Source: Pseudomonas lutea (GTDB taxonomy: Bacteria > Pseudomonadota > Gammaproteobacteria > Pseudomonadales > Pseudomonadaceae). From it: a stretch of DNA of 64,000 bases. The stretch is from positions 1 through 64,000 of the forward strand of contig NZ_JRMB01000005.1 in the NCBI RefSeq assembly GCF_000759445.1, written 5' to 3'. Positions 10,369 to 55,300 of this stretch are shown here, in pieces. Every line of letters begins with the position of its first letter. Positions within the stretch are counted from its first letter, which is position 1. Both the position numbers and the translations under genes were made by a program. Below the pieces are notes generated by a model. It was not told where the DNA came from. It did no database searches and was given only the letters and a program-made list of their open reading frames with translations.

Positions 10369-10377
10369 CGAGTTTTC

Positions 10378-18870: not shown

Positions 18871-18901
18871 GGCCCCCGGACTGTCGGAAAGTCAGGAGGC
18901 C
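18871..18901 (+). terminator. Hairpin after the 104-aa gene
   Basis: GGCC...GGACT pairs with AGTC...GGCC imperfectly, and a short A/T stretch follows. Possible terminator in the 490-bp gap (18749-19235), which otherwise holds nothing recognisable. Confidence 0.35.
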
Positions 18902-31260: not shown

Positions 31261-31962
31261 TTACATGTCCATATCGAAGTCATCTTTTCCAGGCGGCACC
31301 GGTGGCTTGGAGGTCAGCGGGTCGGATGACTGAGTAAATCCAGCTTGGTCACGCTCCCTCTCTACACCAAGATCGACCAGATTAGCCTCGATCAAACGGC
31401 CCATACGTTCGGAGCTTCCGTGGTAGGCCTCAATGGATGCGTTGACCATTTCGCTCTTGCTAACGCCTGCCCAGTTGATCCGGTAGCCATTTTCTCTGGC
31501 CAATTGCCCAATAAACTCGCGTTGTGTACGCCCGTTACCTTCGCGAAAGGGGTGTAGAACGTTGATCTCACCGAGATAGTCGCCCAACCGTTCGCTGAGC
31601 TTGTCCGGTGACAGGCCGCGCAGATGGTTCTCTTTGGCCAACTGGCTGAAAAGCTTCTGACCGGCGCCTTCGAGGTAACCCACATTCGCAAAACGGGTAT
31701 TTCCCTTGGAGATATCGACCTGCCTGAGTTCGCCTGCCCACTCGTACACATCACCGAACAGGTGCCGATGAGTGTCTTTGAGATGCTTGAGATCGAAAGA
31801 TCCAGCGATTGGTTTGGATTCCAGCTCGGCAGCGCGGATCGCAGCAAACGATGATTCCACGGTATCGAGTTGATCCTGGTCCTTTATCTCCAGGCAATTG
31901 CGCAGAACATCGCTACCTGGATAGGTGTAAGGGTCGTTACCGCTTTGCGAGTACTTCGCCAT
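31261..31962 (-). CDS. Fic-family AMP-transferase toxin (VbhT-like), 1
   Basis: About 233 residues from ATG 31962 (AAGGA 6 bases upstream). It carries the full Fic motif HPFREGNGRTQREF (about 142-155) and the upstream KHLKDTHRHLFGDVYEWAGELR part. Class I Fic toxins AMPylate targets such as gyrase unless held by a small antitoxin. The antitoxin gene precedes it with a 26-base overlap. The C-terminal tail (PLTSKPPVPPGKDDFDMDM) is Pro-rich and ends in an acidic DFDMDM, like the ends of the second Fic protein and the relaxase. Confidence 0.93.
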   Translation of the reverse strand: MAKYSQSGNDPYTYPGSDVLRNCLEIKDQDQLDTVESSFAAIRAAELESKPIAGSFDLKHLKDTHRHLFGDVYEWAGELRQVDISKGNTRFANVGYLEGAGQKLFSQLAKENHLRGLSPDKLSERLGDYLGEINVLHPFREGNGRTQREFIGQLARENGYRINWAGVSKSEMVNASIEAYHGSSERMGRLIEANLVDLGVERERDQAGFTQSSDPLTSKPPVPPGKDDFDMDM

Positions 31963-32137
31963 TAGCAATCCTTGCTTTGAAGTTGTTCAACACCGCATTA
32001 ATGTCACATTCGCCGCGTGCAAAACGCTGAAGATCGAGAACGACCTTCGTATCGGGTTCAAGGCCTTCCAGCCGTTGATTTGCGAGAGCGTTAGCAACTG
32101 CGGCCTGACGGGCCTTCAGGTTGATGTTGGCCGACAT
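31937..32137 (-). CDS. VbhA-like Fic antitoxin, 1
   Basis: 66 residues from MSANINLK (GGAGG upstream of the ATG). The inhibitory helix VANALANQRLEGLEPD closely follows VbhA, but the residue that is normally Ser/Thr in the [S/T]xxxE[G/N] motif is Asn here (NQRLEG). The Glu that blocks ATP in the Fic pocket is kept. It overlaps the Fic toxin gene. Confidence 0.85.
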   Translation of the reverse strand: MSANINLKARQAAVANALANQRLEGLEPDTKVVLDLQRFARGECDINAVLNNFKARIANGEVLAKR

Positions 32138-32271
32138 GGAGTCCCTCCGATGGATCACTAGACGATGAGCGCCCGTGCGATAGACGCTCATATCACTGCT
32201 CAGAATTGTATCAGAAACCCGCTGAACCAAGCCGAAGAGCTAGGCCACGGCGTATCCGGGCAGATTCAGAG

Positions 32272-33132
32272 TTAAAAATCCATATCAGGCTCACTACGAG
32301 CCTGAAGGACGTTTTCTTTGCTTTCGGGCTGGACGGAATCACCAACCACATTTACCTGGTACCCAGTCGCGTTCTGTCCAGCCAACTGTCCCTCGGATGA
32401 CGGCTCAGCAGGAGCGGCCACTGTCGCCCGCTGGACTTGCCGATCTTCCAGAGAAGGCACCTTTACAGCGTCACGGAGCAGGTCGGGCAGGTCACGATTA
32501 CCGTCGAACTGGTCCATGGTAAAAACGACCGAACGCTTTGTGTCTTCATGAATGACATGCGGCAAAGCAAGCCTGTTAACGCTTATGTCACGAGCGATGT
32601 AGAGAATGTCGCGGCCAGCTGGTGTCTGGTTGAAACGCTCCCACTCGATGCTGTACCCGGACTCCTCGGCAAGCTGCCTCGTGAACTCGCGAAGTGTCCG
32701 GCTATTGCCATCCGGGAAAGGATGGATGTAATCGAGCGCGGTGTAGAGTCGACCGATCGACGAGGTGAACTCCTGCGGTGACAGCTTTGAAAGAGCGTCC
32801 GGATCTGCGCGTTTCAGCACCTCCTCAAGACGGTTTCGAGCTTCATTATCCATGGCGGAGTAGGCAACACTAGGGCGGACCTCAACCGTTTCCAGACGAC
32901 GCGTTTTAATCCAGTCGTTGCCAGGTGGGACCTGAGGCCGATATTCACCAGGCGTCACCTGATCAAAGCCAAGCCCAGGCAGATCCTGAAATATTCGTCG
33001 GTTTATCTCTCGAAGGTGAGCAGCATCAAAGCTGCCTTTGACAGGATCGAGGCGCAGCTCAAGCAGTCGCCTCGAAGTGTGCGTTGCTTCCAACGCCTGG
33101 CGCTGGTCATCGGTGGGAAATTTGTCGGTCAT
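32272..33132 (-). CDS. Fic-family toxin, 2 (variant GNSR motif)
   Basis: 286 residues. The Fic core is present (FDAAHLREINRRIFQDL, PGEYRPQ, LYTALDYIHPFPDGNSRTLREF), but the second Gly of the GNGR box is replaced by Ser (GNSR). The catalytic His and final Arg remain, so activity may be kept or altered. A long C-terminal tail ends in EPDMDF. The start overlaps the antitoxin stop as ATGA, so the two are translationally coupled. It lies directly upstream of the first Fic pair, with which it forms a tandem. Confidence 0.9.
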   Translation of the reverse strand: MTDKFPTDDQRQALEATHTSRRLLELRLDPVKGSFDAAHLREINRRIFQDLPGLGFDQVTPGEYRPQVPPGNDWIKTRRLETVEVRPSVAYSAMDNEARNRLEEVLKRADPDALSKLSPQEFTSSIGRLYTALDYIHPFPDGNSRTLREFTRQLAEESGYSIEWERFNQTPAGRDILYIARDISVNRLALPHVIHEDTKRSVVFTMDQFDGNRDLPDLLRDAVKVPSLEDRQVQRATVAAPAEPSSEGQLAGQNATGYQVNVVGDSVQPESKENVLQARSEPDMDF

Positions 33133-33332
33133 CCGCGCGTCTGCTCAGCACGCGGCCGTACGAACTCGGCAAGATCGATTTCACCATTAATGAAACGCTC
33201 TGCATGGGCCTCATCCTCAGCGCTGAGGACAAAACCCTCCAGACCAACCGAAGCTCGAGCATAAGCGTGGGCCTCCATGCGACGCTGACGCTCTTCGTCG
33301 CTGATGGGCGATTTTTTTGATTCATCAGCCAT
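33129..33332 (-). CDS. VbhA-like Fic antitoxin, 2
   Basis: 67 residues from the ATG at 33332 (AAGGAG 8 bases upstream; the GTG at 33341 has no spacing for this site). The motif ARASVGLEGFVLS contains the canonical inhibitory SxxxEG. Coupled to the second Fic gene through an ATGA overlap. Confidence 0.83.
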   Translation of the reverse strand: MADESKKSPISDEERQRRMEAHAYARASVGLEGFVLSAEDEAHAERFINGEIDLAEFVRPRAEQTRG

Positions 33333-33403
33333 TCCTGTCACTCCTTACGGTGTCTAAAAATATTAACCCACAACGATGTGCGATCTTTCCGGGGGCAGCC
33401 ACT

Positions 33404-37757: not shown

Positions 37758-38432
37758 ATGTTACTACCAGCAGCAATTCTCGCCCTTTCGCAACAATGCT
37801 CTCCCCAAGTAGCCCCGACGACAATGGCTACTCTGGTTCAGGCAGAGTCTAGCGGAAATCCCTATGCCATAGGAGTCGTGGGCGCGCAGCTGGTCAGTCA
37901 GCCGGCCACCAAGGAAGAAGCGCTTTCGGCTGCAAAGTCCCTGCTAGAGCAGGGCGCTAACATCAGCGTCGGCCTCGGGCAGGTCAATATGAAGAATTTT
38001 TCCGGCCTGGGTCTGACCCTTGACCAGGCTTTTGAGCCCTGTTCCAACCTGACGGCGAGCGGCAAGGTATTGAGCGACTGCTACGCGCGGGCGAGCGAAC
38101 TGATGGGGGCCGGGCAGGAGGCGTTGAAAGCAGCGTTCTCCTGTTATTACTCAAACAACTTCAGTCGTGGTTATGAAACGGAAGGAAAGGCCGGATCAAG
38201 CTATGTCATGAAAATCGCACTCAATAACGAGAAACTCGCAAGTGTTCCCGCTATTGGGTTTAAACCCCAAGACGTTCGAGAGGTAGAACCCCAACCAAAA
38301 AACAGCGATGGAAAACCAGCAGCACCAGTTAAAGCGCTGGAAGACGGCAACAAAATTCCACAACAACCCAACTCCACAGATGACTCAATGTCGTGGGATG
38401 TGCTGGGTGACTTCCACACTCAATCGAAATGA
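37758..38432 (+). CDS. virB1: VirB1-like lytic transglycosylase
   Basis: 224 residues. An N-terminal signal-like helix, then the lysozyme-like domain: TMATLVQAESSGNPYAIGVVG with the catalytic Glu, SVGLGQVNMKNF, and AFSCYYSNNF. It opens the peptidoglycan for the secretion channel. A Pro/Asn-rich tail of about 60 residues follows. First gene of the virB operon. Confidence 0.95.
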   Translation: MLLPAAILALSQQCSPQVAPTTMATLVQAESSGNPYAIGVVGAQLVSQPATKEEALSAAKSLLEQGANISVGLGQVNMKNFSGLGLTLDQAFEPCSNLTASGKVLSDCYARASELMGAGQEALKAAFSCYYSNNFSRGYETEGKAGSSYVMKIALNNEKLASVPAIGFKPQDVREVEPQPKNSDGKPAAPVKALEDGNKIPQQPNSTDDSMSWDVLGDFHTQSK

Positions 38433-38442
38433 GACACCACCA

Positions 38443-38760
38443 ATGAAACAAAACATTTTGACTTCAAGCCCGCTGAAAACCTGCACCCGGTTCGTCATGA
38501 CGTTCTTGGGCCTGTTTTTCGTAAACTTCGCGTTTGCTGCCGGCGGCCTTGATGAGGCGACTACGCAAGCCAACACCATCAAGACCTGGGCGTACGGCTT
38601 CCTTGGGGTCTGCGTATTCATCTACCTGATCTACCTGGTCGTCATGGCGCTGCTGGATCGCAAGCAATGGGCTGACGTGCTGGTAGGTGTGGGCTACGTG
38701 GCCATTGCCGGTGCCATCATCGTTGTCGGTGAGTGGGCCTGGTCGGTCTGGGGTAGCTGA
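38443..38760 (+). CDS. virB2: VirB2 major pilin
   Basis: 105 residues: a long signal sequence ending at NFAFA, then two hydrophobic helices (IKTWAYGFLGVCVFIYLIYLVVMALL and ADVLVGVGYVAIAGAIIVVGEWAW). This is the prepilin layout of VirB2/TraC proteins. It lies between virB1 and virB3. Confidence 0.88.
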   Translation: MKQNILTSSPLKTCTRFVMTFLGLFFVNFAFAAGGLDEATTQANTIKTWAYGFLGVCVFIYLIYLVVMALLDRKQWADVLVGVGYVAIAGAIIVVGEWAWSVWGS

Positions 38761-38761
38761 T

Positions 38762-39133
38762 ATGGCAGAGGCCAAGGAGGAACCGACGTTTGCAGCCTAC
38801 AAAGGGCTCGGCTACGTCTCGATGTTCTACGGGGTTCCCCTTGGCCCGGTACTTGTCTTGTCAGCCATCGGCGTATTCGGTGGCTTCCTGTTCTGTCAGC
38901 TGCTGGGGGCCTGGGGCTTGATCTGCCCCGCCATCTGCGGCCTCGCACTGCTGGTACTCAAGGTGATGTGCGAAGCAGATAACAAGGCAATGGAGCGGGC
39001 CAAGTGGAGCTTCAAATCGTGGTGGATTCGCCTTCGTCTGACTTCGAAGATCATCACCGTTTCACCCAACAAAGTAGGGTCCAAGCATGAGCGTTTTCGC
39101 AGACAGCTTAAAAAAATTCATAGATCCGGCTGA
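38762..39133 (+). CDS. virB3: VirB3 inner-membrane channel protein
   Basis: 123 residues. Starts one base after the virB2 stop. The sequence YKGLGYVSMFYGVPLGPVLVLSAIGVFGGFL and a second helix fit VirB3, which works with VirB4 at the channel base. The last 47 bases overlap virB4. Confidence 0.88.
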   Translation: MAEAKEEPTFAAYKGLGYVSMFYGVPLGPVLVLSAIGVFGGFLFCQLLGAWGLICPAICGLALLVLKVMCEADNKAMERAKWSFKSWWIRLRLTSKIITVSPNKVGSKHERFRRQLKKIHRSG

Positions 39134-41474
39134 GCTAATGCCAGCCTACGGCCGTCATGTTGACAGCCGTGTCGTCACCATGGGCGAGGAACGGCTGCTC
39201 GGCGTGATCACTCTGCAGGGGTGCCCATTTGAAACCACGACCGATAGCGAGCTGATTCGTGGCTTCAACCAGTTCAACCGCATCCTGGCTGAGATTGCCA
39301 AGGTGAACGCACCCAACCTTGCCGAATGGCTTCACGTTCGCAAGGAGCGGGTCCGTCTCGATTTTGATTACAAATTCAAGAATACCTTCGTAGCGCAGTT
39401 TGCCGAAAAGTACCTGCAGCGCTTCCAGGGCGATGATTTTTTCAAGACCACGTACTCCATCAGCTTCGTGCTGAAATACGATTTCGACATCGAGCAGGGC
39501 ATCGAGAGGATGAACATGCTGCTCGATTTTGCGCTCAAGTCGCTGCGCCATTACGACCCCGTAGCACTGGGCATCGAGCAAAATTCCCATGGTGTCACGC
39601 ACTCGCAAATTGGTGGATTCCTCAACCAGCTGCTGAACCGCTCCGATGAAATCGTGCCGCTGAGCGGTGACGCTATCAGCGATACCATCCAGACAGCTGG
39701 CCTGCATTTCGGGTTTGACCTTTGCGAGATTCGCCCAAGCACGGGCGGACAGATTTATGCGACCTACTACGACCTGGACTTTCCCGACGAAAGCAAACGG
39801 GCGATGTGGAACTCGCTGCTCAAAGAACCCTTCGAGTTCTGCCTTACCCAGTCGTTTTTCAACTTCACGGCGAGCAAGTCGCTGGGCCTGAGCAACAAGA
39901 AGATCAACCAGGTCTCATCGGGCACGAATTTCCCTGAACACTACGTCCAGGACATTCAGGAAGCCCGCAGCTACATCGCCTCGGGCGAAATAACCCTTGG
40001 CGAACACCACGGTGCGCTGGTGGTGTATGGCCGTACGGCACGTGAGGCGACCGACAATGGCAGCACAATGGCGACTAACCTGCTGGCTTCCAGCGGTGCT
40101 CGCTTCGTGCGTGCAACTAGCTCGGGGATCTTCACCTATTACTCGATGATGCCTGGCACAAAAGACAAGCCTCTGGCCGAGCCAAAGACTACTCGTAACG
40201 TTGCGTGTGGCTTTTCGCTGTACAACTACCCGACCGGGAAACAGCGCGGCAATCCAATTGGCGACGGCTCAGCCGTCATGCCGCTGCCGACCGTTTCCGG
40301 TTCCGTATTCTGGTTCAACACGCATGTCAGCAATCCAACGCAGGACGTGCGGGGTCAGAAATATCCGGGGCACATGCTTTGCCTAGGCGCGACCGGTGCG
40401 GGTAAGACGACCTTTGAAGGGACCCTTGTCGGGTTTCTGGATCGCTTCAACCCCAAGATTTTTGCCATCGACTTCAACCGCTCGATGCAGATGTTCCTTG
40501 AGACCTACGGCACGACCTATTTTGACATTCAGGAAGGTGTCTACACCGGCCTGAACCCGTTCCAGTTAACGGACTCGCCGTCACTGCGTTCATACCTGTA
40601 CGGGCTTGTCGGTGCCTGTGGCCGTGACAACAGTGGCCATCTGACCGCCAGTGACGAAGCCAAGATCAAGAATGCCGTTGACACGATCATGGGCATGGAA
40701 CAGCTGGACCGCCGTTTCAGCTATCTGTCGTCACTGATCCCGCCAGAAGGGGGGGACGGCCTGGGCGATCGCCTGGCCAAATGGCAGCAGTCTTGCAATG
40801 GCTCGCTGGCCTGGGCACTGGACAGCCCGGTCAACCAGTTCGACCCGGCAAACATGCGCCGGATCGGGTTCAACACCACCGACATTCTCAAGCCCGGCCA
40901 CCCGGCCACCGAGCCTGTGCTATCCGTGCTGTTCCACATGAAAGACATGATGCAGAAGGCCGGTGAACTGTTCCTGACGCTGGTTGAAGAGTTTTGGGTG
41001 CCTGCCAACTACCCGACAACCCAAGCACAGATCATGGGCACGCTCAAAGCAGGCCGGATCAAGGGCGAATTCATGTTTCTGGTGTCGCAGTCGCCCGAGG
41101 ACGCCATCAACTGCGCGATCTTCGCACCGATCATTCAGCAGACTCCGACCAAGGTGTTTTTGCCAAACCCGGACGCCACCTTTGAGAGCTACGAGAAGTG
41201 CGGCCTGAACCGCAAAGAGTTCGACGAACTTCACAAACTCGACAAGGCGTCGCGCACATTCCTGATCAAACAGGAACATCAGTCCACGTTCGTACTGCTC
41301 GACCTGGAAGGCTTCGATGACTTCCTGCCGATTATCTCAGGTACGTGGGAAAGCATCGATCTGGCGCACAAGATCAAGGCCGAAGTTGGCTCTGATCCAG
41401 CCGCTTGGGTGCCTATTTTTCAACAGCGTTATCGCGAAATGAAAAGTGCTGAAAAACAAGGAGAAATGAAATGA
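39087..41474 (+). CDS. virB4: VirB4 transport ATPase
   Basis: 795 residues, normal length. Walker A is CLGATGAGKTTFEG (about 432-445), Walker B-like FLTLVEEFW, plus the N-terminal VirB4 domain. It powers pilus assembly and substrate transfer at the inner membrane. Its start lies within virB3, and its stop overlaps virB5 by four bases. Confidence 0.96.
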   Translation: MSVFADSLKKFIDPAELMPAYGRHVDSRVVTMGEERLLGVITLQGCPFETTTDSELIRGFNQFNRILAEIAKVNAPNLAEWLHVRKERVRLDFDYKFKNTFVAQFAEKYLQRFQGDDFFKTTYSISFVLKYDFDIEQGIERMNMLLDFALKSLRHYDPVALGIEQNSHGVTHSQIGGFLNQLLNRSDEIVPLSGDAISDTIQTAGLHFGFDLCEIRPSTGGQIYATYYDLDFPDESKRAMWNSLLKEPFEFCLTQSFFNFTASKSLGLSNKKINQVSSGTNFPEHYVQDIQEARSYIASGEITLGEHHGALVVYGRTAREATDNGSTMATNLLASSGARFVRATSSGIFTYYSMMPGTKDKPLAEPKTTRNVACGFSLYNYPTGKQRGNPIGDGSAVMPLPTVSGSVFWFNTHVSNPTQDVRGQKYPGHMLCLGATGAGKTTFEGTLVGFLDRFNPKIFAIDFNRSMQMFLETYGTTYFDIQEGVYTGLNPFQLTDSPSLRSYLYGLVGACGRDNSGHLTASDEAKIKNAVDTIMGMEQLDRRFSYLSSLIPPEGGDGLGDRLAKWQQSCNGSLAWALDSPVNQFDPANMRRIGFNTTDILKPGHPATEPVLSVLFHMKDMMQKAGELFLTLVEEFWVPANYPTTQAQIMGTLKAGRIKGEFMFLVSQSPEDAINCAIFAPIIQQTPTKVFLPNPDATFESYEKCGLNRKEFDELHKLDKASRTFLIKQEHQSTFVLLDLEGFDDFLPIISGTWESIDLAHKIKAEVGSDPAAWVPIFQQRYREMKSAEKQGEMK

Positions 41475-42154
41475 CTCGCTTGAATACTCGCTCACTCTCG
41501 TTTGCAATTTCCGTGGCCTTGGGCACGATCTCGGCAAACGCTTTGGCCTCCGGCATTCCTACCGTTGACGTAGCAAGCATTGCGCAGATGGCGCTGGATG
41601 CCAAAGCGCAGGCCGATCAAGCTGCAGCAGCGCTCTCTGAGGCTCAAAACGCTATCTCCCAGGCCAAGTCCCAGTTCAATGAACTGAAGGGGCTGACAAC
41701 CGGAAATTCCGGCTACGGGAGCATGTACAACAGCTCCAAGATGACCAGCTACCTTCCGACCACCACCACTGCCGGCAGCTGGTCAACGATCTACAGCAAC
41801 ATGGACAGTTCAAAACTGGCCAGCTTGCGCAGCCAGTACGGTCTTACGTCTGATGACGCCCTGCAGCAGGAGGTCTACGACAAGAAGCTGACCAACATGG
41901 CCACTGCTGAAGCCCAATATGACGCGAATAACCTGCGTCTGCAGAATATTCAGAATCTGCAGGCAGCAGCTGATCAGGCCACTACGCCTCAGCAAAAAGA
42001 AGACATTTCCAACCGGATCAAAACCGAGCAAGCAACTATTGCCAACGAGGCAAACCGGCAGGCAACGGCCAAAGATCTGATGGACAAGCAGGATGATCTG
42101 CTGGCTCAAAAGCAAAACGATGAATTCGACAAATTCATGAAGAGTGGGGAATAA
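41471..42154 (+). CDS. virB5: VirB5 minor pilin
   Basis: 227 residues with a signal peptide ending near ANALA, then a helical, Gln/Ala-rich periplasmic domain (MALDAKAQADQAAAALSEAQNAISQAKSQ) as in VirB5/TraC tip adhesins. GGAG lies upstream; ATGA overlap with virB4. Confidence 0.9.
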   Translation: MTRLNTRSLSFAISVALGTISANALASGIPTVDVASIAQMALDAKAQADQAAAALSEAQNAISQAKSQFNELKGLTTGNSGYGSMYNSSKMTSYLPTTTTAGSWSTIYSNMDSSKLASLRSQYGLTSDDALQQEVYDKKLTNMATAEAQYDANNLRLQNIQNLQAAADQATTPQQKEDISNRIKTEQATIANEANRQATAKDLMDKQDDLLAQKQNDEFDKFMKSGE

Positions 42155-42156
42155 CC

Positions 42157-43134
42157 ATGGCAGGGCAATTCACTATAGGCTCCGATATATTCGCGTCGAT
42201 TGACACCGGACTTTCCTCGGTGTTTTCGTCGGGTTTACCTGCGCTCGCCAGTTTGGTGGCGCCTGTAGTGGGTGCCTTTGTGTCCCTGTATGCTGTAATT
42301 ATTGCACTCAACTGGATCTGGTCAGGCAACACGCAGGAACTACCCATTGGTGATTTGCTGAAGCGGATGTTCTACATGGCGCTGTTCACAGCGTTCGCGT
42401 TCAACATCTCGCTTTACAATACCGCCGTGGTGGCTCCAGTCCAAAGTATTGGTGCGGAAATCGCCCAAGCATTCGCTCGGACCAATACTCAAGTGCCTAA
42501 CATCATTGATCAGATGGGAAACCAGATCATCGACACCGTAACAATGATCTGGACAAAAACACCCAAAATGACCTTGCTCAAATGGAACTTGGTGCCGATG
42601 ATGCGTGCCCTCGGGACTATCCTAATTGTGGCAATTGGCGGTTCTATATTCATGGCTATCTCGTTCCTGTATTTGCTGATTGCCAAGATTATGGTTGCCT
42701 TTGTATTGTTAGTTGGGCCAATTTTTATTTCATTCGCATTCTTCCCGTTAACTCGGGACTACTTCATGAAATGGGCATCACAGCTGCTGAACTATATTTT
42801 TCTTTATGCCTTTTTCGGCATAGGCTTTACGCTCTTAACAAACCTCCTGCAGCAATATGTTTCGGGCAACGACTTCAGTAAGATTCTAGTTACGGATGTA
42901 ACACAGATTAAATTACTATTCTGCTACATCCTTTTCTCCGGCGTAATGATGGCTATTCCCTCTCTTGCCTCTCAACTGACTGGCGGTGTTGGCATAAGTG
43001 GCCTGGGCGCAGCGGGTCCGATGATGAGCATGATGACGCGGGGTGTCAGTCAACTCGCCAAAGGCTTGGGGAAAGGAGCAGGTGGCAGCGGTAATCGGAT
43101 CGCGGGTGCTGGGTCCAATCGCAAGTTAGGATGA
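42157..43134 (+). CDS. virB6: VirB6 polytopic membrane protein
   Basis: 325 residues with five or more hydrophobic segments (LASLVAPVVGAFVSLYAVIIAL, AFVLLVGPIFISFAFFPL and others) and the conserved VirB6 region FPLTRDYFMKWASQLLNYIFLYAFFGIG. It forms part of the inner-membrane channel. Gly/Ser-rich C-terminus. Confidence 0.94.
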   Translation: MAGQFTIGSDIFASIDTGLSSVFSSGLPALASLVAPVVGAFVSLYAVIIALNWIWSGNTQELPIGDLLKRMFYMALFTAFAFNISLYNTAVVAPVQSIGAEIAQAFARTNTQVPNIIDQMGNQIIDTVTMIWTKTPKMTLLKWNLVPMMRALGTILIVAIGGSIFMAISFLYLLIAKIMVAFVLLVGPIFISFAFFPLTRDYFMKWASQLLNYIFLYAFFGIGFTLLTNLLQQYVSGNDFSKILVTDVTQIKLLFCYILFSGVMMAIPSLASQLTGGVGISGLGAAGPMMSMMTRGVSQLAKGLGKGAGGSGNRIAGAGSNRKLG

Positions 43135-43135
43135 T

Positions 43136-43151
43136 TTTCGCGGGCGCGAAA
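43136..43151. promoter_or_regulatory. Palindrome TTTCGCG-GG-CGCGAAA (site 4)
   Basis: Begins one base after the virB6 stop. Sites 4 and 5 are 46 bp apart centre to centre and flank the virB6-virB7 gap. Confidence 0.55.
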
Positions 43152-43181
43152 TTCCGTTTTCAGGTTTAACCAATATAAAGA

Positions 43182-43197
43182 TTTCGCGGGCGCGAAA
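43182..43197. promoter_or_regulatory. Palindrome TTTCGCG-GG-CGCGAAA (site 5)
   Basis: Ends 14 bases before the virB7 start and abuts its GGAG ribosome-binding site, so binding or folding here could limit virB7-virB8 expression. Confidence 0.58.
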
Positions 43198-43211
43198 AAA
43201 TGGAGTTACAC

Positions 43212-43358
43212 ATGTACAAGGTTTTGATCTTGGTGTTATCGGCTTTTCTCGTTTCGGCATGTTCTTCCAAACCACCAATGCCCCCAGAACCAGAGGGGCC
43301 ATTGATCAAGGTGAACATCAACCAGCCACATGAGACTTTCGGCGAGGTGAAGAAATGA
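43212..43358 (+). CDS. virB7: VirB7-like lipoprotein
   Basis: 48 residues: MYKVLILVLSAFLVSAC with lipobox LVSAC, then a short Pro-rich mature part. The size and position between virB6 and virB8 fit VirB7, which stabilises VirB9 in the outer membrane core. GGAG lies 6 bases upstream, and ATGA overlap couples it to virB8. Confidence 0.85.
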   Translation: MYKVLILVLSAFLVSACSSKPPMPPEPEGPLIKVNINQPHETFGEVKK

Positions 43359-44143
43359 GAAAAAACACGGATGTCAGCCCGGAATTGCAAAAGCATTTCG
43401 AGGAGACCAAGAGCCTGGAACAGCGCCGCGACAGCGGAGACGCTGCGGAAAAAGGTGCCTTGGGAAAAGAAGCCAAGCGCCTGATCGAGGAAGCGAAGAA
43501 ATTCGAGCGCTCACGCGAAGCGTCGAACAAGAAGATGACCAAAGCTGCAGTGATTGTGGCGGGTATCTCCGTTGTATTGAACCTGCTTCTGGGCATTGCC
43601 ATTGTTGTCATGATGCCCTTGAAAACAGTCGAACCCTATGTTCTCCGAATTCACGACGGAGGTTCGGTCACTGCCGAGGCGCCGCTGGGTGAGGCGAAGA
43701 CGACGTTTGGCGAGGAAGCTGACAAGTTCTTTATCTCGCAATATGTAATTGCTCGTGAGTCGTATGACTGGAACCTGGCTCAGCGCAATTACGACACGGT
43801 AAAGTCATATAGCATTCTGGGTGGTTCGGTTTTCAACGAGTACGACAACTTCGTCAAGTCGCCTAAATCGCCGCTCGCCATTCTGACCAATAAGGCCCGT
43901 GTAGAAGCGCCTATTACGTCCATTACCCTGGACCAGAAAACGTCGACGGCAACCGTTCGCTTCGCAAAAACCGTTATTGCGGCAGATGGCAAGCCAAGCT
44001 TGATGATTCCGCAAACCTACTGGATTGCCACACTCAGCTACAGCTACCCCAATCCGAAACTCAAGCCCGAGGAGCGTCGCCTGAACCCGCTCGGTATGAA
44101 GATTCCGGCCTATCAACTGGTGCAAGAGCAAATCGGGAACTGA
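43355..44143 (+). CDS. virB8: VirB8 inner-membrane protein
   Basis: 262 residues. A charged cytoplasmic N-terminus, one TM helix (AAVIVAGISVVLNLLLGIAIVVMMPL) and the periplasmic VirB8 domain (FISQYVIARESYDWNLAQRNYDTVKSYS...RLNPLGMKIPAYQ). Nucleates the channel and links VirB6/9/10. Confidence 0.95.
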   Translation: MRKNTDVSPELQKHFEETKSLEQRRDSGDAAEKGALGKEAKRLIEEAKKFERSREASNKKMTKAAVIVAGISVVLNLLLGIAIVVMMPLKTVEPYVLRIHDGGSVTAEAPLGEAKTTFGEEADKFFISQYVIARESYDWNLAQRNYDTVKSYSILGGSVFNEYDNFVKSPKSPLAILTNKARVEAPITSITLDQKTSTATVRFAKTVIAADGKPSLMIPQTYWIATLSYSYPNPKLKPEERRLNPLGMKIPAYQLVQEQIGN

Positions 44144-44145
44144 CA

Positions 44146-44943
44146 ATGAAATACAATCTTGCACTTAACACGTTTGTAGTCGTCGCAACTCTGATGGGTT
44201 GCAACCTGGCCAGCGCTGCAACTGCACCCACACCATCGACTTTTGACCAGCGCATCCAGAATGTAATGTACAACCCGGACGACGTGGTTGTTATCCGCAC
44301 CCGACCTGGTAACACCACACTGGTCAAGCTGGAACCAGGTGAGGTTGTCGTGGGCATTCCGGGCGGTGGCTTGTCGATTGGCGACTCTGACGCATGGACT
44401 ATCGGCATCCGGGAAAACAGCATCTTCCTCAAACCCAAAGCGCCGTTTCCAGACACGAACATCAACCTTGTGACGAACAAGCGTACCTATGCTATCCAGC
44501 TGGTGGAAACGAATGATATCAAGCGTGCCTCCTGGCAGGTACGTTATCAATACCCCGCCGTTCCAGTTCCTATCAAAGCACCTGTGGTGGATCGTGGCCC
44601 GTGTTCGGACGGCCCAATCAACCGCAACTACTTCAAGTATGGCGATCAGTCATTGTCTCCTACCGAGGTTTGGGACGATGGCCGATTCACCTGCATGCGG
44701 TTTCCGACCAGCAAAGCATTGCCCAATGTTTATCGCTACAACCCTAAATCAGAACTCAAGGAAGCCATTACCAACTTCCACATGAAAGACGATGTACTGG
44801 TTGTGCATGAGGTGACGGACGAATTCCGCCTTCGTATTGGTGACCAGGTTCTGGGGCTCAAAACAGACTCGCTGCGCGATGCTCCGTACAACTGGAAGAA
44901 AACGACTACCGGCGAGACAAGGGTGAACCGCAATGGCCAATAA
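44146..44943 (+). CDS. virB9: VirB9 outer-membrane core protein
   Basis: 265 residues with a signal peptide (to ASA), the periplasmic VirB9 N-domain (RIQNVMYNPDDVVVIRTRPGNTTLVKLEPGE) and the C-terminal beta domain (KYGDQSLSPTEVWDDGRFTCMRFP). Overlaps virB10 by 11 bases. Confidence 0.95.
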   Translation: MKYNLALNTFVVVATLMGCNLASAATAPTPSTFDQRIQNVMYNPDDVVVIRTRPGNTTLVKLEPGEVVVGIPGGGLSIGDSDAWTIGIRENSIFLKPKAPFPDTNINLVTNKRTYAIQLVETNDIKRASWQVRYQYPAVPVPIKAPVVDRGPCSDGPINRNYFKYGDQSLSPTEVWDDGRFTCMRFPTSKALPNVYRYNPKSELKEAITNFHMKDDVLVVHEVTDEFRLRIGDQVLGLKTDSLRDAPYNWKKTTTGETRVNRNGQ

Positions 44944-46330
44944 TCCATACCAAGACCTTGATGCAGAGGAAGGCCGTCCGATTGATCCGCCTGTAGCCCC
45001 TCAACCGCTGGCAGGTGATCGCGGAGAACCTACGACCAAATCCCCAAAGCGCAAGAGTAAAGGGGTGGTCATCGCGGTCGTCGCGATCATTGTTGCTGCC
45101 CTGTTGTGCCTAGGCTTCGTAGGGTTGTTCGCTTATCGCTCGGTTCAGGCCAGCAAAGCTGCGAGGGCCGCGAACGTGGCAGAAGATCCGGCACTGGCGC
45201 AGAAAACCAGCGATGGCCCGGATCTGGGCCGCTATCAGGAAAAGCTTGCCGCGGATCTCGCTGCGCAGCAGAAAGCTGCCGAAGATCAACGCCTTGCCCT
45301 AGAAAAACAGGCAGAACTGGCTCGCCTGAACGCTGGCCGTCAAAGCGGCCAGCAGCCTGCTCCAGGGCAGCCAAGCCTTGGACGCTATGAGGGTGCGCAG
45401 CGTGGTCAAGCACCTCAGCAAGCCAATGGTGGGGGCACAGCCAAACGCGAACCGACGCCAGCTGAGGTCGCGGCCGCTCGCCGATTGAACGGCTCAGTCC
45501 TATGGGCAGATAACAATGCAGCCAGTGGCCGCGGTGGCTCGGGTTCCAATACCCGTGCTGCAGGCGGAAATGCGAGCGCAAGCTCACTCGATGGTCAAGA
45601 GGCCGACAGCTCGTACCTGTCCGGGTCCGACAGTGGCGGCTCTTTAACTGGTGCAAGCCTGGGCGGCGGCGCAGCGGGGGGGACTGGTGGCTCTGCAGGA
45701 GGCAAAGCTTCGATTGGCGGCATGCTGCAGACCGAACGGTATCCGAACGGCACCGTACAGCAGCGCGGAAGCGTGAAATACCTGCTGGCCCGTGGCACAA
45801 CCATTCCTTGCACCATGCGCGAGCGCGTTGTCACCAACTATCCGGGTGGCGTCATGTGCATCATCAACCGCGACGTCTACAGCGCCGATGGTTCGGTATT
45901 GCTGATGGGCAAGGGCAGCACCGTGAACGGCGAGCGCAAGGTGGCGATGTCTGCAGGTGTGGCCAAGGTGTTTGTTGCGTGGGGTGACGTTGAGACAACT
46001 GATCATGCACACGTTCAGTTTGACTCGCTCGCCGCTGACGCTCTGGGTGGTGCCGGTCTTGACGCATGGATTGACCGCCATCTGATGGAACGCTTCGGCG
46101 GTGCCATATTGCTGAGCTTTGCTGACGATGTATTCAAAGCACTGAGCAATTCGACAAGCAGCAGCGAAGTCTCGTTTGACAGCAGCACAGACAATGGCAG
46201 TGACATGGCCAGCATTGCTCTTGAGAACAGCATCAACATACCGAATACCGGCTATGTGAAACAGGCGGCGGAAACCAACATCCTGGTTGCCCGCGATGTG
46301 GACTTCACCAGAGTGTACGGAGTGCAGTAA
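44933..46330 (+). CDS. virB10: VirB10 channel scaffold
   Basis: 465 residues. A cytoplasmic N-terminus, TM helix (VVIAVVAIIVAALLCLGFVGLFAY), a long Gln/Gly/Ser/Ala-rich linker, and the C-terminal TrbI/VirB10 domain (RGTTIPCTMRERVVTNYPGGVMCIINRDVYSADGSVLLMGKGS). It spans both membranes and senses ATP energy from VirB11/VirD4. Confidence 0.96.
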   Translation: MANNPYQDLDAEEGRPIDPPVAPQPLAGDRGEPTTKSPKRKSKGVVIAVVAIIVAALLCLGFVGLFAYRSVQASKAARAANVAEDPALAQKTSDGPDLGRYQEKLAADLAAQQKAAEDQRLALEKQAELARLNAGRQSGQQPAPGQPSLGRYEGAQRGQAPQQANGGGTAKREPTPAEVAAARRLNGSVLWADNNAASGRGGSGSNTRAAGGNASASSLDGQEADSSYLSGSDSGGSLTGASLGGGAAGGTGGSAGGKASIGGMLQTERYPNGTVQQRGSVKYLLARGTTIPCTMRERVVTNYPGGVMCIINRDVYSADGSVLLMGKGSTVNGERKVAMSAGVAKVFVAWGDVETTDHAHVQFDSLAADALGGAGLDAWIDRHLMERFGGAILLSFADDVFKALSNSTSSSEVSFDSSTDNGSDMASIALENSINIPNTGYVKQAAETNILVARDVDFTRVYGVQ

Positions 46331-47382
46331 TGACGACTGTCAGCCCTTTCATCCAGCCTGGCGCCATCGCGGCGCCGGTCTTTGACAACTCGAAACCGGT
46401 ACGCTCGTTGCTCAAGCAGACGGGCATTCAGGACAAACTGGATATTCCGGGCGTTACCGAGGTGGCCATCAATCGCCCTGGGGAAATCTGGTACGAAAAG
46501 AACAGCATGTGGCATGGTGAAAAAGCCCCGCATCTGGATCTGCAACTGTGTTCCCAGCTGGCAACAGCAATGGCGGTAGGGGTCGCCAACGACTCCGGCC
46601 AGTTGCAGAAGAACCCGATCTGTCCAGTTGCGCTGCCTGACGGCGAACGGGGGCAGATCGTCATGCCCCCGGCCACGGAAAAGGGCTGCATTTCATTCAC
46701 CATTCGTAAACCATCCTCCGCTCGTTTCTCGCTGCAGGACTATCACGATACTGGCCGCCTCAGCGGCTATCGTGTGATCGAGAAGAAAGGCGACATTGAA
46801 GAATGGCAGAAAGAAATGATCATGTGCGTCAAGCGCGGCGACATGATGAAGTTCTTTCAGATGGCCGTACGTCACAAGCTGAATCTGCTGTTCGGCGGTG
46901 CGACCGGTTCGGGCAAGACGACTTTTTCCAAGGCCATCGTCGACCTGTATCCGCTCGCCAAGCGTTACATCACCATCGAGGACATTCACGAACTGCAGAT
47001 GCCCAATCATCCGAACCGGGTTCACCTGTTCTTCGGGCCTCACATGAGCGCTCGATACCTGGTGCAATCCTGCATGCGGATGAAGGCCGACCACATCTTC
47101 ATGTCCGAGCTCAAAGGCGACGAAACCTGGTCGTATTTTTCGGTCCTCAATACCGGCCACAAGGGCAGTCTCACGACTGCCCACTTCAACGACTGCAACA
47201 GCGCTGCTGCCCGCTTGACGGAAATGGTCAAGCAGTCAGACGTGGGTCTGACACTCGATTATCAGTTCATCTACCGCACGGTGAAAACATCGATCGACTG
47301 CGTTTGCCACTGGGAAGGCTCCTACCTCAAGGAAGTGCTATTCGAGCCAGAAGAGCAACTTCGCCTGTTGAACGGGGAATAG
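46330..47382 (+). CDS. virB11: VirB11 secretion ATPase
   Basis: 350 residues of the hexameric GspE/VirB11 type. Walker A GGATGSGKTTF (about 187-197), Asp box and Walker B (YITIEDIHELQ, HIFMSELKGDETW) and the His box (GHKGSLTTAHFND). Start and virB10 stop share bases, so translation is coupled. Confidence 0.97.
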   Translation: MTTVSPFIQPGAIAAPVFDNSKPVRSLLKQTGIQDKLDIPGVTEVAINRPGEIWYEKNSMWHGEKAPHLDLQLCSQLATAMAVGVANDSGQLQKNPICPVALPDGERGQIVMPPATEKGCISFTIRKPSSARFSLQDYHDTGRLSGYRVIEKKGDIEEWQKEMIMCVKRGDMMKFFQMAVRHKLNLLFGGATGSGKTTFSKAIVDLYPLAKRYITIEDIHELQMPNHPNRVHLFFGPHMSARYLVQSCMRMKADHIFMSELKGDETWSYFSVLNTGHKGSLTTAHFNDCNSAAARLTEMVKQSDVGLTLDYQFIYRTVKTSIDCVCHWEGSYLKEVLFEPEEQLRLLNGE

Positions 47383-47385
47383 GTC

Positions 47386-49116
47386 ATGGGAAGGAAAATC
47401 ACCGCGGCGATCATCATGCTGATTCTGGCCATCGCCGCCGTCGTCGGAGGTCAATACGCCGGTGGGGCTTTCCTGCTGCAGCGGCTGGATCTGGACCCGG
47501 CAACTGTGAGCGTCTTCACGCTTCACGACTACTACAGCGCCTACGGGCATGTCGGTGGGGTAGTCGAGAAAATGATCAAGATTTCACTGGCATTGTCTGC
47601 CGTGCCGGTCGTTCTGATCATTGTTGTTTGCCTGGCTATCGTATTCAGCGGCAAGCGCGAGATCGACAAGCTGCACGGCGATGCGCGCTTTGCGACAGAT
47701 GCCGAGATTGCCAAGGCAAACATGTTCTACAAGCCGGACTACACACCGAAATGGCCTGCAGTGATCCTGGGCAAGAAGGGCAAGCGCTTCATCGCAGACT
47801 ACTCGCAAGAATACACAACCCTTTCCGCGCCTCCAGGCGCCGGCAAGGGTGTCAGCTTCGTTATTCCGAACCTGCTGACCTATCCGCACAGCGTCATCAA
47901 CTTTGACCCGAAGACCGAGAACTTCGCGATCACAGCCGGCTATCGTAAGGACGTAATGGGTCAGGAGGTGTACCTGTTTTCCCCTGACAACGCGAACTTT
48001 CAATCGCACTGCTGGAACCCGCTGGATTACATCAGCGAAGATCCGCGCAAGACGCTGGCCGACATCAAGTCCCTGACCACCATCCTGATCGATGCACCGG
48101 ACGGACCGAACCAGGGGTTCTACCTGACTGCCCGGGATGCGCTGGATGGCATTCTCATGTACATGATGGAAAGCCCCGAAGTGGAGCGGACCATGTATCA
48201 AGCGGACGCTCTCAACACTGTTGCCATTGGCTTCGACAAATGGGCAATGAGCACGATCGCCTGGCGCGACAATGAGGGCCGCAAGCTCTCCGAACAGACC
48301 GTTCGAATGCTGATGGGCTATGCGAACGCGAACGACAAGATGAAAGAGACGGTACGCGGCATTATTTCCACGGCCCTGAGCGTCTTTACCGATGCGATGG
48401 CACGTGCCGCAACCTCCAAATCCGACTTCGATTTTCGTGATCTGCGCAAGAAACCAATGACCATCTTCGTCGGCATCCAACCGGATAACGTCGAAAAGTA
48501 CGCAAAGATGCTCAACATCTTTTTCTCGCAAGCCCTGGCGGTCAACACCGGTACCCTGCCGGATGAGGGACCGAAGGATGCAGACGGCAATCCGGTATTG
48601 AAATACCAGTGTCTGCCGCTGCTCGATGAGTTCGTGGCTCTCGGGCGCATTGGCGTTATTGAAAAATCCTCGGGATACACCCGTGCCTACAACATGCGCT
48701 ATGCGGTGATCTTCCAGAACAAGGCGCAGATCTATTCGGATCGCGTCTATGGCAAGGCCGGCGGCCAAGCATTGCTCGGCACCATGCACAATGAAATTGT
48801 GTTTGCTCCCGACAATATGGAAGACGCAAAAGAATATTCCGAGCGACTGGGCTACAGGACGCTCAAACACAAGGAGCGCAGCCGAGGCATGTCCAAACAG
48901 GGAAGCAGTACAAACGACTCGATACAGCGTCACCAACGCGCCCTGATGCTGCCTCAGGAGATTGTGAACATGCCTTATACCGAGCAACTGATTTTCAAGA
49001 AGGGCGGTCGGATTCTGCCCATCAGCTGCAACAAGATTGTCTGGTATGAGGATGAGTTCTTTAAATCCCGTGCCAATTTGCCGAAACCCGAAGTGCCGGC
49101 AATGGTCTTTGCCTGA
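47386..49116 (+). CDS. virD4: VirD4/TraG coupling protein
   Basis: 576 residues. N-terminal TM helices, Walker A APPGAGKGVSFV (about 149), the VirD4 region NFDPKTENFAITAGYRK, Walker B CLPLLDEFVALGRI. It delivers the relaxase-DNA complex and protein substrates to the VirB channel; C-terminal substrate signals are read by this protein and its all-alpha domain. Three bases after virB11. It would have to recognise the proposed acidic tails of relaxase and Fic proteins. Confidence 0.96.
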   Translation: MGRKITAAIIMLILAIAAVVGGQYAGGAFLLQRLDLDPATVSVFTLHDYYSAYGHVGGVVEKMIKISLALSAVPVVLIIVVCLAIVFSGKREIDKLHGDARFATDAEIAKANMFYKPDYTPKWPAVILGKKGKRFIADYSQEYTTLSAPPGAGKGVSFVIPNLLTYPHSVINFDPKTENFAITAGYRKDVMGQEVYLFSPDNANFQSHCWNPLDYISEDPRKTLADIKSLTTILIDAPDGPNQGFYLTARDALDGILMYMMESPEVERTMYQADALNTVAIGFDKWAMSTIAWRDNEGRKLSEQTVRMLMGYANANDKMKETVRGIISTALSVFTDAMARAATSKSDFDFRDLRKKPMTIFVGIQPDNVEKYAKMLNIFFSQALAVNTGTLPDEGPKDADGNPVLKYQCLPLLDEFVALGRIGVIEKSSGYTRAYNMRYAVIFQNKAQIYSDRVYGKAGGQALLGTMHNEIVFAPDNMEDAKEYSERLGYRTLKHKERSRGMSKQGSSTNDSIQRHQRALMLPQEIVNMPYTEQLIFKKGGRILPISCNKIVWYEDEFFKSRANLPKPEVPAMVFA

Positions 49117-52306: not shown

Positions 52307-55300
52307 TTACATATCAAAATCAGGTTCGGCTCTTTCCATGCCGCTTGGTGCCTGTGTCATTTGCTCAGACGCCACCACTCTCGAAGCCTCGACGGTTACT
52401 GCGAAGCCCTCAGGCGCGTACTCGGCAATATAGGCGCTGTACTGCTCGTTTTCCATCGCTCGTCCCATGGCCAGCGCAACGTTCTGCTGCTCAGGCTTAC
52501 CTTCCAGACGTTCAAAGGCCACCAGGTCTTTGCGAGCCAATTCACGCAAGGCTTCGTCGTTGCCAAACGCTTCATGCGTAGCGATATCCTCATGGCCTCG
52601 CTCCACATCGGCCAGCGTACCGCTGCGCACGATCTGATCGTATACATCCGGAGCAGCGTCAGCAGCGTACATCTCACGAACCTGACGAAGCTCTGAGGCT
52701 CTAGCCGCCACTTCGGGCGACAGCTGCTGCACTGGGCTGGCGGGAGCACTATTTCGTCCAAGATCCAGCGTAGCGGGTTGGCCGTTATGCGTGAAGTTGA
52801 GCGGCTCGGGCGCTGAAGCTGCTGGCTGCTCGATGACGGCTGCAGCTGGCTCAGCCGGGACCGGTTGACCTTGATAACGGCTGAGGTCGAGTTCGGCTGG
52901 CCGGCCGTTATGGGTGAAGCTCAACGGCTCGGGCGCTGAAGCTGCTGGCTGCTCGATGACGGCTGTAGCTGGCTCAGCGGGATCCGGTTGACCTTGATAA
53001 CGGCTGAGGTCGAGTTCGGCTGGCTGGCCGTTATGGGTGAAGTTCAACGGCTCGGGCGCTGAAGCTGCTGGTTGCTCGATGACGGTTACAGCTGGCTCAC
53101 CGGGAGCCGGTTGACCTGAATAACGGCTGAGGTCGAGTTCGGCTGGCTGGCCGTTATGAGTGAAGTTCAGCGGCTCGATACCTGCAGCTGGTTGCTCTAC
53201 AGCTGGAGCGGGCTGAACGGCATCCATGCGGGTCTGGAGCTGAGTCGGTGCATAGTTCTGGACATAGGTACGATAGGCTTCGTGCGTGGCAGCGAGGCGG
53301 CTCATATCAGAGACCAGCGCTGCCTCATGGTAGGCCTTGTCCGCGCCGTAGAACTCTTCCTGCCCACCTTGTGCGCTGGCCATGTATTGCGACGCCTCGA
53401 TGCCCACGGCAGCGACATTCCGGCTGTACTCGTCACTGCGCGGCTCAAGGTCGAAGTCTGCATGAAGGCGTGCTGCGGTACTGGCCGCATCGGTCCAGTC
53501 TGCAAACTGTGTTGGCTCCCTGTTAACAGCCGGTTGTTCCAGCTGCGCTTTTTCCTCAAGCGCTGTGACGAAGTCCGGGCGAATGAAACGAGTCACAGGT
53601 TCCTGTTCCACCTGGGCCTGCACTGGCATCGATTCAACCTGGGGCTCAGGCACTTGTCCAGCCACTGGCTGCTGAGTGGAGATGCCCCCGTCACGCTGAA
53701 CCATGAAGCGGGCAGCATCAACCGTAAGGCCAAACTCTGCAGGTCCGTGTTCATTCAGGTAATCGCTGTACACACCGTTGCCTTTGGTTTCGGCCATAGC
53801 CAGTGCCAACGGTACCTGCTCAGGCTTGCCTTGCAGGTAGGCGTAGGCATCAAGGTCCTCGCGTGCAATTTCTCGGATGCGATCGCTATCCAGGAACCCT
53901 GCCGCGATCTCCTCATGACGCGCCGTTGCATCGGAAACCATGTCCTGGTGCATGGCCACATCGGCCATCGAATAAGGTATGCCCTGATTGACCGCGTCCA
54001 GCTCGGCTACCCTGGACTCCAGCAGCGCCTTATCAACCGCCTGGTCAACAGGCAGGCTGCTATCCAGCTCGAGTGTAGGGACGGTGATGACATTGCCTGC
54101 GAGCGGTTCCAGACCCAGTTCCAGACGCTTGGCAGCCAAGGCCTGGTTGAGGCGCTCATCTGTGAAGGTAATGTCCATGTCACGCTCAGCAGCAACCTCT
54201 ATGAGTTGCTGCTTGAATTCCTTGCTACCGCTGATTTCGAGCGGATTACCGAAGCGCTCGGTAGCGTACATCAGCCCTACGCCTACCTCGTCTGGCTCAG
54301 TGGTTCGATTGAGTTCAACGCGGTCAGGATGGTTGACGAAAATCTGCTTGCCATGCTCTCTGTGGTTGAACGCCACTGTTCCATCAGCTTGGGGCCTTGC
54401 GCGCAAATCCGACAGCTTGATGCGTAGCTCGCGAGCTTCGCGTTCCTGGGCGTGAAGCTTTGCAACCAGTCGGGCACGCTTCATCGCCTCTGCGCCGTCA
54501 GGCAGCTGGTGAGGTGTGAAAGGACGCTGGCCACCGATTGTGTTCACGCCTTCTTCCATGGGTGCTACATGTTTCCGTTTCAGCTGATCAAGGATCTTCA
54601 TGCCTAGGGCCTCGCTCTTCGTTGCGAAATCATAAAAAAGAGTTGAATACGGGTACTTAACCCTGTTCTTTAAGCTGTTCTGCTCATCAATCCGTTGCTG
54701 TAGCGCTTCAACCTTTTGCAACTTCTCCAGTATAACAACTGAGCGAAAGTAATGCTTGTCAGCGCGACTTAAAGTCTGGTCCTGGGTGATATTTTTTCGA
54801 CGTGAAAAATATTCAGAGTTGATAGCTTTAAGGCCAAGCGAAAAACTGACTTTAATCTCGTTTTTCAGATCGTCATAAGTGCGAATATTCTGCGGATAGA
54901 TTTCTTGGCGAAAACGACGCCACTCCTCCAACAATATGACTTTGGAAAGGGGCTTCTCGGTAATGCCCGACTGCTGTTTTTCGTACAGCTCCAAGAGCAG
55001 GTTCGACGCTTCACCCCATTCAAGACCAACATGCCTGGTGAGGAAGTCAGAAACGTTGTAATTGTATTTGCCTGCCCTGATGCGAACGCTGCCGTCTTTG
55101 GCCTTGCTGACCGGGTGCAGAGCCGGGTCAACGCCGAATTTGAGCTGGGCATAGGCAAGGAGATGCTGTGCATCGAGATGGGTGCGGATCTCCTTGAACC
55201 GATCAAGGTCATTGGCTTGCAGCTGCCTGTCTGCCTCAGCGTGCAGGAGGGAGGTGAGCACGCAGGACTGGGGATCACTGATCAGGTCTGGGACTACCCT

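Follow-up and report, generated by a model that had tools for sequence, protein, structure and literature searches.

Why do two toxins of one plasmid end in nearly the same few residues as that plasmid's relaxase? The question arises in a 64,000-bp stretch of Pseudomonas lutea DNA (NZ_JRMB01000005.1, positions 1 to 64,000; hereafter the window), where two Fic toxins, denoted Fic1 and Fic2 and each preceded by a VbhA-type antitoxin gene, share a short acidic C-terminal tail with the relaxase. A preliminary description had reported this tail, with sequences and coordinates that we find to be right; the interval it marked covers the two Fic genes, and the relaxase tail lies ~20 kb away. The window comes from contig C5 of a five-contig, 5.64-Mb genome. 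The two ends of this contig overlap over ~4.58 kb with 99.87% identity, so that we take it to be most likely a circular plasmid (~62.8 kb) whose start recurs in the final 1.2 kb of the window (62797-64000). The toxin, antitoxin and relaxase features are as follows.

31261..31968, minus strand: Fic1 toxin, 235 amino acids (aa), VbhT-type Fic domain (Pfam Fic, E = 1.1e-14), without a BID domain.
31261..31287, minus strand: Fic1 tail KDDFDMDM plus stop, from the translation; second of 94 open reading frame (ORF) tails in likeness to the relaxase.
31937..32230, minus strand: VbhA-type antitoxin of Fic1, ORF of 97 aa overlapping the Fic1 start (Pfam VbhA, E = 2.1e-11).
32272..33132, minus strand: Fic2 toxin, 286 aa, PromA-type Fic domain (Pfam Fic, E = 8.4e-10).
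32272..32298, minus strand: Fic2 tail RSEPDMDF plus stop; first of the 94 ORF tails in likeness to the relaxase.
33129..33341, minus strand: VbhA-type antitoxin of Fic2, 70 aa, overlapping the Fic2 start (Pfam VbhA, E = 8.8e-11).
52307..56590, minus strand: LPD7-type (NikB-like) MOBP relaxase, 1427 aa (Pfam LPD7, E = 1.7e-13).
52307..52333, minus strand: relaxase tail RAEPDFDM plus stop (end GMERAEPDFDM), from the translation.

The short acidic tail common to Fic1, Fic2 and the relaxase is confirmed. The C-terminus of Fic1 reads PPVPPGKDDFDMDM and that of Fic2 VLQARSEPDMDF; three to four of the last 8 residues in each of the three tails are acidic, mostly Asp, and the last 6 residues carry a net charge of −3 in the relaxase, as they do on average in Fic1 and Fic2. 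The ranks listed above compare the last 8 residues by BLOSUM62, anchored at the end and ungapped, over non-overlapping ORFs of at least 60 aa. Among the ORFs scored, the earlier statement that no other protein ends in this way holds. Beyond the tail, no alignment joins the relaxase to either Fic protein (best E values, 0.98 with Fic2 and 0.19 with Fic1).

A loose form of the tail motif, GAYWTKGAYWTKTRR, occurs 5 times in the 5.64-Mb genome, and three of the five occurrences are the C-termini of Fic1, Fic2 and the relaxase; a match on contig C4 falls at the end of a 54-aa ORF and was taken as spurious. The tight form, CCNGAYWTKGAYWTKTRR, stands for P-D-x-D-x-stop with x hydrophobic, a pattern that also admits TGG. 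It has 17 matches in 293 genomes of the order, two of them on this plasmid, where they end Fic2 and the relaxase. Only two of the other 15 matches end an ORF of at least 40 aa (46 and 55 aa), and none ends an ORF of at least 60 aa in the 292 other genomes. The motif was picked after the tails had been seen, so these counts describe rarity and the weight rests on tests in other plasmids. A topoisomerase ending KPDFDNVKGG was considered as a further bearer of the tail and excluded, because homologues on several other plasmids also have KPD near their ends.

Both Fic toxins have recognizable domains and a VbhA antitoxin gene directly upstream (Pfam). The Fic/AMPylation motif, HxFx(D/E)GNGRxxR, is present in Fic1 (HPFREGNGRTQR) and in Fic2 (HPFPDGNSRTLR, Ser replacing the second Gly). 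Residues 5-208 of Fic1 are VbhT-like (best solved relative VbhT, 3zc7, E = 3.1e-66), and the AlphaFold model (mean predicted local distance difference test score, pLDDT, 92) gives 3zc7 again as the top Foldseek match (E = 2.2e-22). The VbhT comparison drawn earlier is sound, except that a BID domain is absent: the alignment covers residues 5-208 only, the protein ends at 235, and a 27-residue extension stands where VbhT carries its BID domain. This end is flexible, as had been proposed, with Pro in residues ~211-235 and pLDDT falling to 58-69 in the model. Fic2 is up to 71% identical over residues 7-224 to plasmid Fic proteins of a subfamily found on PromA plasmids, and its best matches break off at residues 222-225, ahead of the tail. 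In the ORF of the Fic1 antitoxin the VbhA domain occupies residues 41-87, so that the true start is probably internal.

The relaxase resembles annotated LPD7 or nikB relaxases that are accompanied by MobC, and its residues 1-963 are 64% identical to a homologue in same-genus genome G907. It has no match to the PF03432 relaxase model at E = 0.01, and no solved structure matches it by sequence at E = 1 or better. The nearest named plasmid is that of P. hydrolytica, with a relaxase 56% identical across 75% of the query length; it has no annotated Fic gene and carries a zeta toxin near the relaxase instead. A C-terminal domain is common to zeta and relaxase, on the P. hydrolytica plasmid at E = 4e-17 and in G907 by alignment, and the window relaxase holds two copies of it, 37% identical to each other.

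52355..52663, minus strand: helical module copy 2, relaxase residues 1310-1412, directly before the tail and within a match to the P. hydrolytica zeta toxin (E = 6e-12).
53711..54022, minus strand: helical module copy 1, relaxase residues 857-960 (E = 7e-12 to the same zeta toxin).

The AlphaFold model of the two repeats is helical and weak (pLDDT 65), with the end as coil after the helices; the model of the C-terminal module has no fold match in the PDB at E = 0.001 or better. Residues ~1140-1275 of the relaxase contain repeats of the type EPLxFTHNGQPAxLDLxRY, a motif also found in a hypothetical protein of P. bubulae, and the C-terminal query also matched a KfrB-domain protein of P. fragi.

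On these two related plasmids, toxin and relaxase tails have changed together. The tails are TRDQGMEL (zeta) and EADKGMEL (relaxase) in P. hydrolytica, and SGDRDMEL (zeta) and AADRDMEL (relaxase) in G907. Within one plasmid, identity between zeta and relaxase is only ~33% and ~38% in the shared domain, against 5/6 and 6/6 of the last six residues; orthologues compared across the two plasmids are ~52% and ~58% identical in the domain and agree at 4/6 tail residues. For these two plasmids, and with domain columns that take in a few residues adjoining the tail, the domain before the tail goes with the gene and the tail with the plasmid.

Among relaxase homologues the tail, whose conservation the preliminary description had made its own test, is conserved as a class and not letter for letter. 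A search of 398 same-genus genomes returned 14 with a match, the window's own included. We read 14 relaxase ORFs in 13 contigs of 11 other genomes; two further genomes matched the repeat region only, and a match in G975:C85 lies outside the count. An acidic, Met-containing tail ends 10/14 of these ORFs (DRDMEL, EAGMGMD, EAGMGSD, DDGMSVD, EDGMSMD, EDGMNMD), and the other four have two basic and two unrelated ends. Relaxase tails of the same class are found in P. hydrolytica and pA506 (NikB ends GPDMD). Fic or zeta had no match in 14 of the 15 same-genus contigs fetched, and these 14 stand outside the counts of the test below; five of the 14 are covered in part, and two of the 14 also lack a relaxase match in the stretch covered.

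We then ranked ORF tails by likeness to the relaxase on those fetched plasmids that encode Fic or zeta and whose relaxase could be read, using random proteins of the same plasmids as stand-in relaxases for the null (20,000 draws, floor 5e-5). The 19 MOBP-type plasmids, a class assigned partly by annotation and similarity and called non-mobilizable by MOB-suite for 6/19, carry 21 toxins: 9 of these hold the first rank and 11 a rank in the top 5% (P = 5e-5, the floor). Leaving out the window does not change this P value, nor does leaving out P. hydrolytica and G907 as well, when 7 of the 17 remaining toxins are in the top 5%. A reduced set takes a single toxin from each of 10 other plasmid families, with PromA represented by its weakest member and Pasteurella by the weaker of its toxins; 3/10 then rank in the top 5% (P = 1.5e-4). 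When toxin-relaxase pairs are shuffled among 11 plasmid groups, Bartonella excluded, the 8-residue comparison gives P = 7e-4. On pBGR3, the plasmid of the known VbhT system, the VbhT/TraA tail ranks first of 30, and for all 27 toxins together 12 are in the top 5%. Tail lengths of 6, 8 and 10 residues gave similar outcomes. Sharing can extend further upstream, as between Fic and LPD7 proteins of Moraxella (46% over 76 residues, E = 1e-18).

Some choices define these counts. Since scoring is end-anchored and ungapped, a shift of one residue counts as a miss. Two misses, Aminobacter and pXap48, joined the set once the first versions of the test had been run, and the MobF of pXap48 is shorter than its relatives. 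Outside the counts are Burkholderia savannae (L119, relaxase beyond the fetched stretch), Paracoccus (L125, no annotated relaxase in the stretch and a tailless Fic), P. bubulae (L015) and pA506 (L135), both with no Fic or zeta annotated in the fetched stretches, and 80 Fic loci (L021-L100), most of them without a relaxase match within the stretch. pMBUI6 was counted by its annotated zeta ORF (15/69); ORFs of 366 and 226 aa ending STDKELER score highest there and were not counted.

Several observations on toxins of other plasmids stand apart from these tests. The pMBUI6 zeta (L013 42113-43321) holds STDKELE followed by unrelated residues, and the separate 366-aa ORF (10258-11358) has no Pfam match. 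In Pasteurella (L130) a protein annotated as KfrC family starts with a Fic domain, and the zeta toxin of this plasmid has almost the same tail as a zincin-domain protein in the TraC position (TKTKKLKR / SKTTKIKR; 18844-20115 and 33301-34197). IncP-type pAKD4 has one Fic-KfrB ORF (L019 33979-34950; Pfam Fic and KfrB) that contains the annotated kfrB. A Fic protein of a Rickettsia endosymbiont (L064 4305-5228) ends SFVPDLDM, near the window tails, and its adjoining 514-aa ORF ends NDLER.

The plasmid also encodes an apparent transfer machine and further proteins that bear on the function of the tail.

37758..47382, plus strand: VirB-type channel genes, lytic transglycosylase through VirB11; ORFs ordered as in the annotation of the P. 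hydrolytica plasmid, with names given from position and likeness.
47386..49116, plus strand: VirD4-type coupling protein, 576 aa, which presumably reads the tail; named by position and likeness, in the slot after virB11 as on the P. hydrolytica plasmid.
56595..57023, minus strand: MobC-like relaxosome protein upstream of the relaxase, named by position; MobC is annotated beside homologous relaxases.
1885-2367, minus strand: SSB of the plasmid, from the ORF; present twice on the contig because the contig ends overlap.

Adjoining the relaxase are two tandem, similar, small lipoprotein-like ORFs (51093-51416 and 51609-51929, minus strand) after an MvaT-like ORF (51926-52297). The P. hydrolytica zeta toxin sits between the relaxase and an MvaT gene, and the corresponding slot is empty in the window. 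The Fic region and the relaxase-MobC region had no match in a megablast search against plasmids.

Our preferred answer, to which we give a probability of about 0.7, is that the tail acts as a plasmid-specific coupling-protein signal and that the Fic toxins would be conjugation-delivered, VbhT-like effectors in which a short acidic tail replaces the BID domain. We infer VirD4 recognition, transfer, target and plasmid benefit along the following lines. The last 6-8 residues of the relaxase may serve as a plasmid-specific address read by the plasmid's VirD4, assisted in some plasmids by the helical module just before the tail, and toxins of toxin-antitoxin modules would have gained this address. 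Fic1 and Fic2 would then travel with or beside the relaxase during mating and enter the recipient by way of the VirB channel, while the VbhA antitoxins keep them silent in the donor. The known targets of FicT toxins are DNA gyrase and topoisomerase IV. In the recipient the two Fic domains would probably AMPylate these same enzymes, and replication could stall until the incoming plasmid makes antitoxin. FicT toxins are described as disrupting DNA topology (PMC5675462).

Several results weigh against this answer. Ten of the 21 MOBP toxins lie outside the top 5%, some as near misses (Xcamp 5/62, pRA2 3/48, Moraxella 2/33, Sulfobacillus 4/72) and others clearly (pUSA011 14/63, pMBUI6 15/69, pP33-1 29/64, Pasteurella Fic 20/40, Aminobacter 37/66, pMPC6 48/58). 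On mobilizable pRA2, for example, zeta ends GPDMEM and its own relaxase ends QMDIDR, without a match. On MOBF-type plasmids 0/5 toxins, from five plasmids, are in the top 5% (P = 0.76). A matching tail is therefore not universal, failing for 5/5 MOBF and 10/21 MOBP toxins; the earlier proposal of a shared VirD4 signal is partly supported. It predicts that other plasmids have other tails, matched all the same between toxin and relaxase, and this prediction, which could have failed, is borne out in homologues; on MOBP plasmids the tails match far above chance. The translocation signal domains of MOBF relaxases are internal. Relaxases of this class are described as using translocation signal domains (PMC3912908), and the failure there may arise from this, an explanation reached after the fact.

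Fic ORFs without the tail also count on the negative side. On the IncP-type contigs L029 and L030 the Fic ORF ends at 200 aa without a tail, and a separate KfrB ORF bears it. Among the 80 Fic loci, many Fic ORFs likewise end tailless near residue 200, and others have extensions often ending -ER, -SR or -GR; one locus (L036, Bartonella) shows matching tails and another (L041, with a MobF relaxase) does not. Tailless ORFs of ~200 residues fit a plasmid role for the tail and also fit simple lineage.

Charge is a further difficulty. Known type IV secretion system (T4SS) signals are described as mostly positively charged or hydrophobic (PMC5675462, PMC11288057), and the acidic Fic and relaxase tails lack the positive net charge of typical short T4SS signals. 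Charge complementarity between tail and coupling protein was considered and rejected: PromA coupling proteins end strongly acidic, yet over 15 plasmids the charge of the tail is uncorrelated with that of the coupling-protein C-terminus (Spearman p 0.48-0.995; the 366-aa ORF of pMBUI6 was used here instead of zeta). Finally, a 9-bp terminator-like hairpin (32285-32305, minus strand) overlaps the tail codons of Fic2.

The rival explanation that survives best is a docking tag inside the donor: the tail would bind the relaxosome, the coupling protein or another plasmid protein and hold the relaxase and the toxins close to the transfer apparatus or in check, with no toxin export. Docking would give the same co-variation, and sequence alone cannot separate it from export. 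We nevertheless consider it unlikely. In the reverse ranking, the closest tail for 13/18 MOBP toxins (two ties) belongs to the relaxase, the other Fic protein, an LPD7/KfrB protein or a TraC-position protein, so that the nearest tails are mostly of protein types known or proposed as transferred (relaxase, LPD7 polyvalent, TraC-position; PMC5512222). VbhT/TraA, the only system with this arrangement to have been tested, is reported as exported (PMC5675462), and transfer of the Sog primase and of VbhT is mentioned elsewhere (PMC11288057).

An acidic tail with a hydrophobic end could instead mimic the C-terminal tail of SSB and dock the relaxase and Fic proteins on SSB-binding proteins. The plasmid's SSB does have the closest tail in the window after the Fic proteins and the relaxase; but the tails of the nearest relatives (GMEL, RDMEL) are unlike SSB tails and are shared in the same manner, which makes mimicry quite improbable.

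It is also very improbable that the toxins gained a copy of the relaxase 3′ end by recombination and have kept it passively and without function. Segments do move between these genes, as the duplicated C-terminal domain of relaxase and zeta indicates, but the tails stay matched where that domain is down to 33-38% identity, and the window Fic proteins carry the tail without the domain. DNA similarity between zeta and relaxase is limited to the last codons in both pairs, with 8 and 11 of 36 positions identical upstream and 8 and 7 of 30 downstream. Within the tail codons there are synonymous differences (GAA/GAG and AGA/CGA in G907, CTT/CTC in P. hydrolytica), and together with the dissimilar flanks they favour selection on the peptide over copying of a long tract.

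That the likeness in the window is a coincidence of short acidic ends, one of them partly dictated by a terminator hairpin, is scarcely credible: the Ser-Glu-Pro-Asp codons of Fic2 do lie in the hairpin, with T's after it, and the motif was picked after the fact, but the tail occurs in three proteins of one plasmid, its tight form ends no ORF of at least 60 aa in the 292 other genomes, the same pattern recurs in relatives with different residues and the general rank test speaks against chance.

A broader form of the coupling-signal reading is that MOBP plasmids hold private C-terminal addresses, with relaxase, LPD7/KfrB/TraC-like proteins and Fic or zeta toxins converging on one tail that drifts in concert. 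We hold this generalization tentatively, at slightly less than even odds. If it is true, conjugation by such plasmids would routinely be toxin delivery, and where a conjugation machine has not been characterised, its substrates could be recognized by matching tails to the relaxase. Matching tails to a plasmid's own relaxase would be a way to nominate conjugation-delivered toxins from sequence alone. Should the coupling-signal reading be right, toxin-antitoxin genes on many environmental plasmids would be cargo injected into recipients, beyond their role as addiction modules, which would change the view of plasmid establishment, recipient arrest and competition between plasmids. It would also bring an acidic member to the VirD4-type signals, which are described as mainly basic or hydrophobic.

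Other known systems resemble this proposal in part. Acidic C-terminal signals recruited by a T4SS coupling complex are described for Legionella, where E-block signals are read by DotM (PMC5802825). Those signals are Glu-rich and belong to Dot/Icm, a type IVB secretion system (T4BSS) with DotL/M/N, whereas the window tails have 6-8 residues, mostly Asp, belong to a VirB/VirD4-type system and do not have the make-up of an E-block. For the F plasmid (pED208), proteins besides the relaxase are reported to be co-translocated (PMC11288057, PMC8406263), and toxins sharing the relaxase tail do not appear in the available parts of these sources. LPD polyvalent proteins, some of them zeta-toxin-like, have been proposed to enter the recipient, and the window relaxase has an LPD7 domain; that study (PMC5512222) sorts domains, and the part of its text that was searched does not mention a secretion signal, a C-terminal tail, Fic or LPD7. 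In the open-access literature, mostly without subscription journals and preprints, we found no report of short relaxase tails shared with toxins of toxin-antitoxin modules.

Closest to the window is VbhT of Bartonella pVbh/pBGR3. Its conjugative delivery is known and further cases with short signals have been expected (Harms 2017); VbhT is reported as exported to recipients, and short signals as hard to predict (PMC5675462). The two systems have in common a VbhT-type Fic protein, a VbhA antitoxin, a conjugative plasmid and a C-terminus shared with the relaxase. They differ in that VbhT shares its whole C-terminal secretion signal with TraA, whereas the window proteins share only an acidic tail of 6-8 residues, and in that the window has two Fic toxins of different subfamilies and a relaxase that is NikB-like and not TraA. 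A BID-like FicT on a Methylobacterium extorquens plasmid and a PezT of Chelativorans have also been predicted as toxins of toxin-antitoxin modules delivered by conjugation through a C-terminal signal (PMC5675462); they were found through BID-like sequence, and the difficulty of predicting short signals is what the tail-matching test addresses. Conjugative Fic delivery with a C-terminus shared with the relaxase is thus known from VbhT, and what is new is a VbhT relative that lacks BID and ends in an acidic 6-8 residue tail, together with the matching-tail rule.

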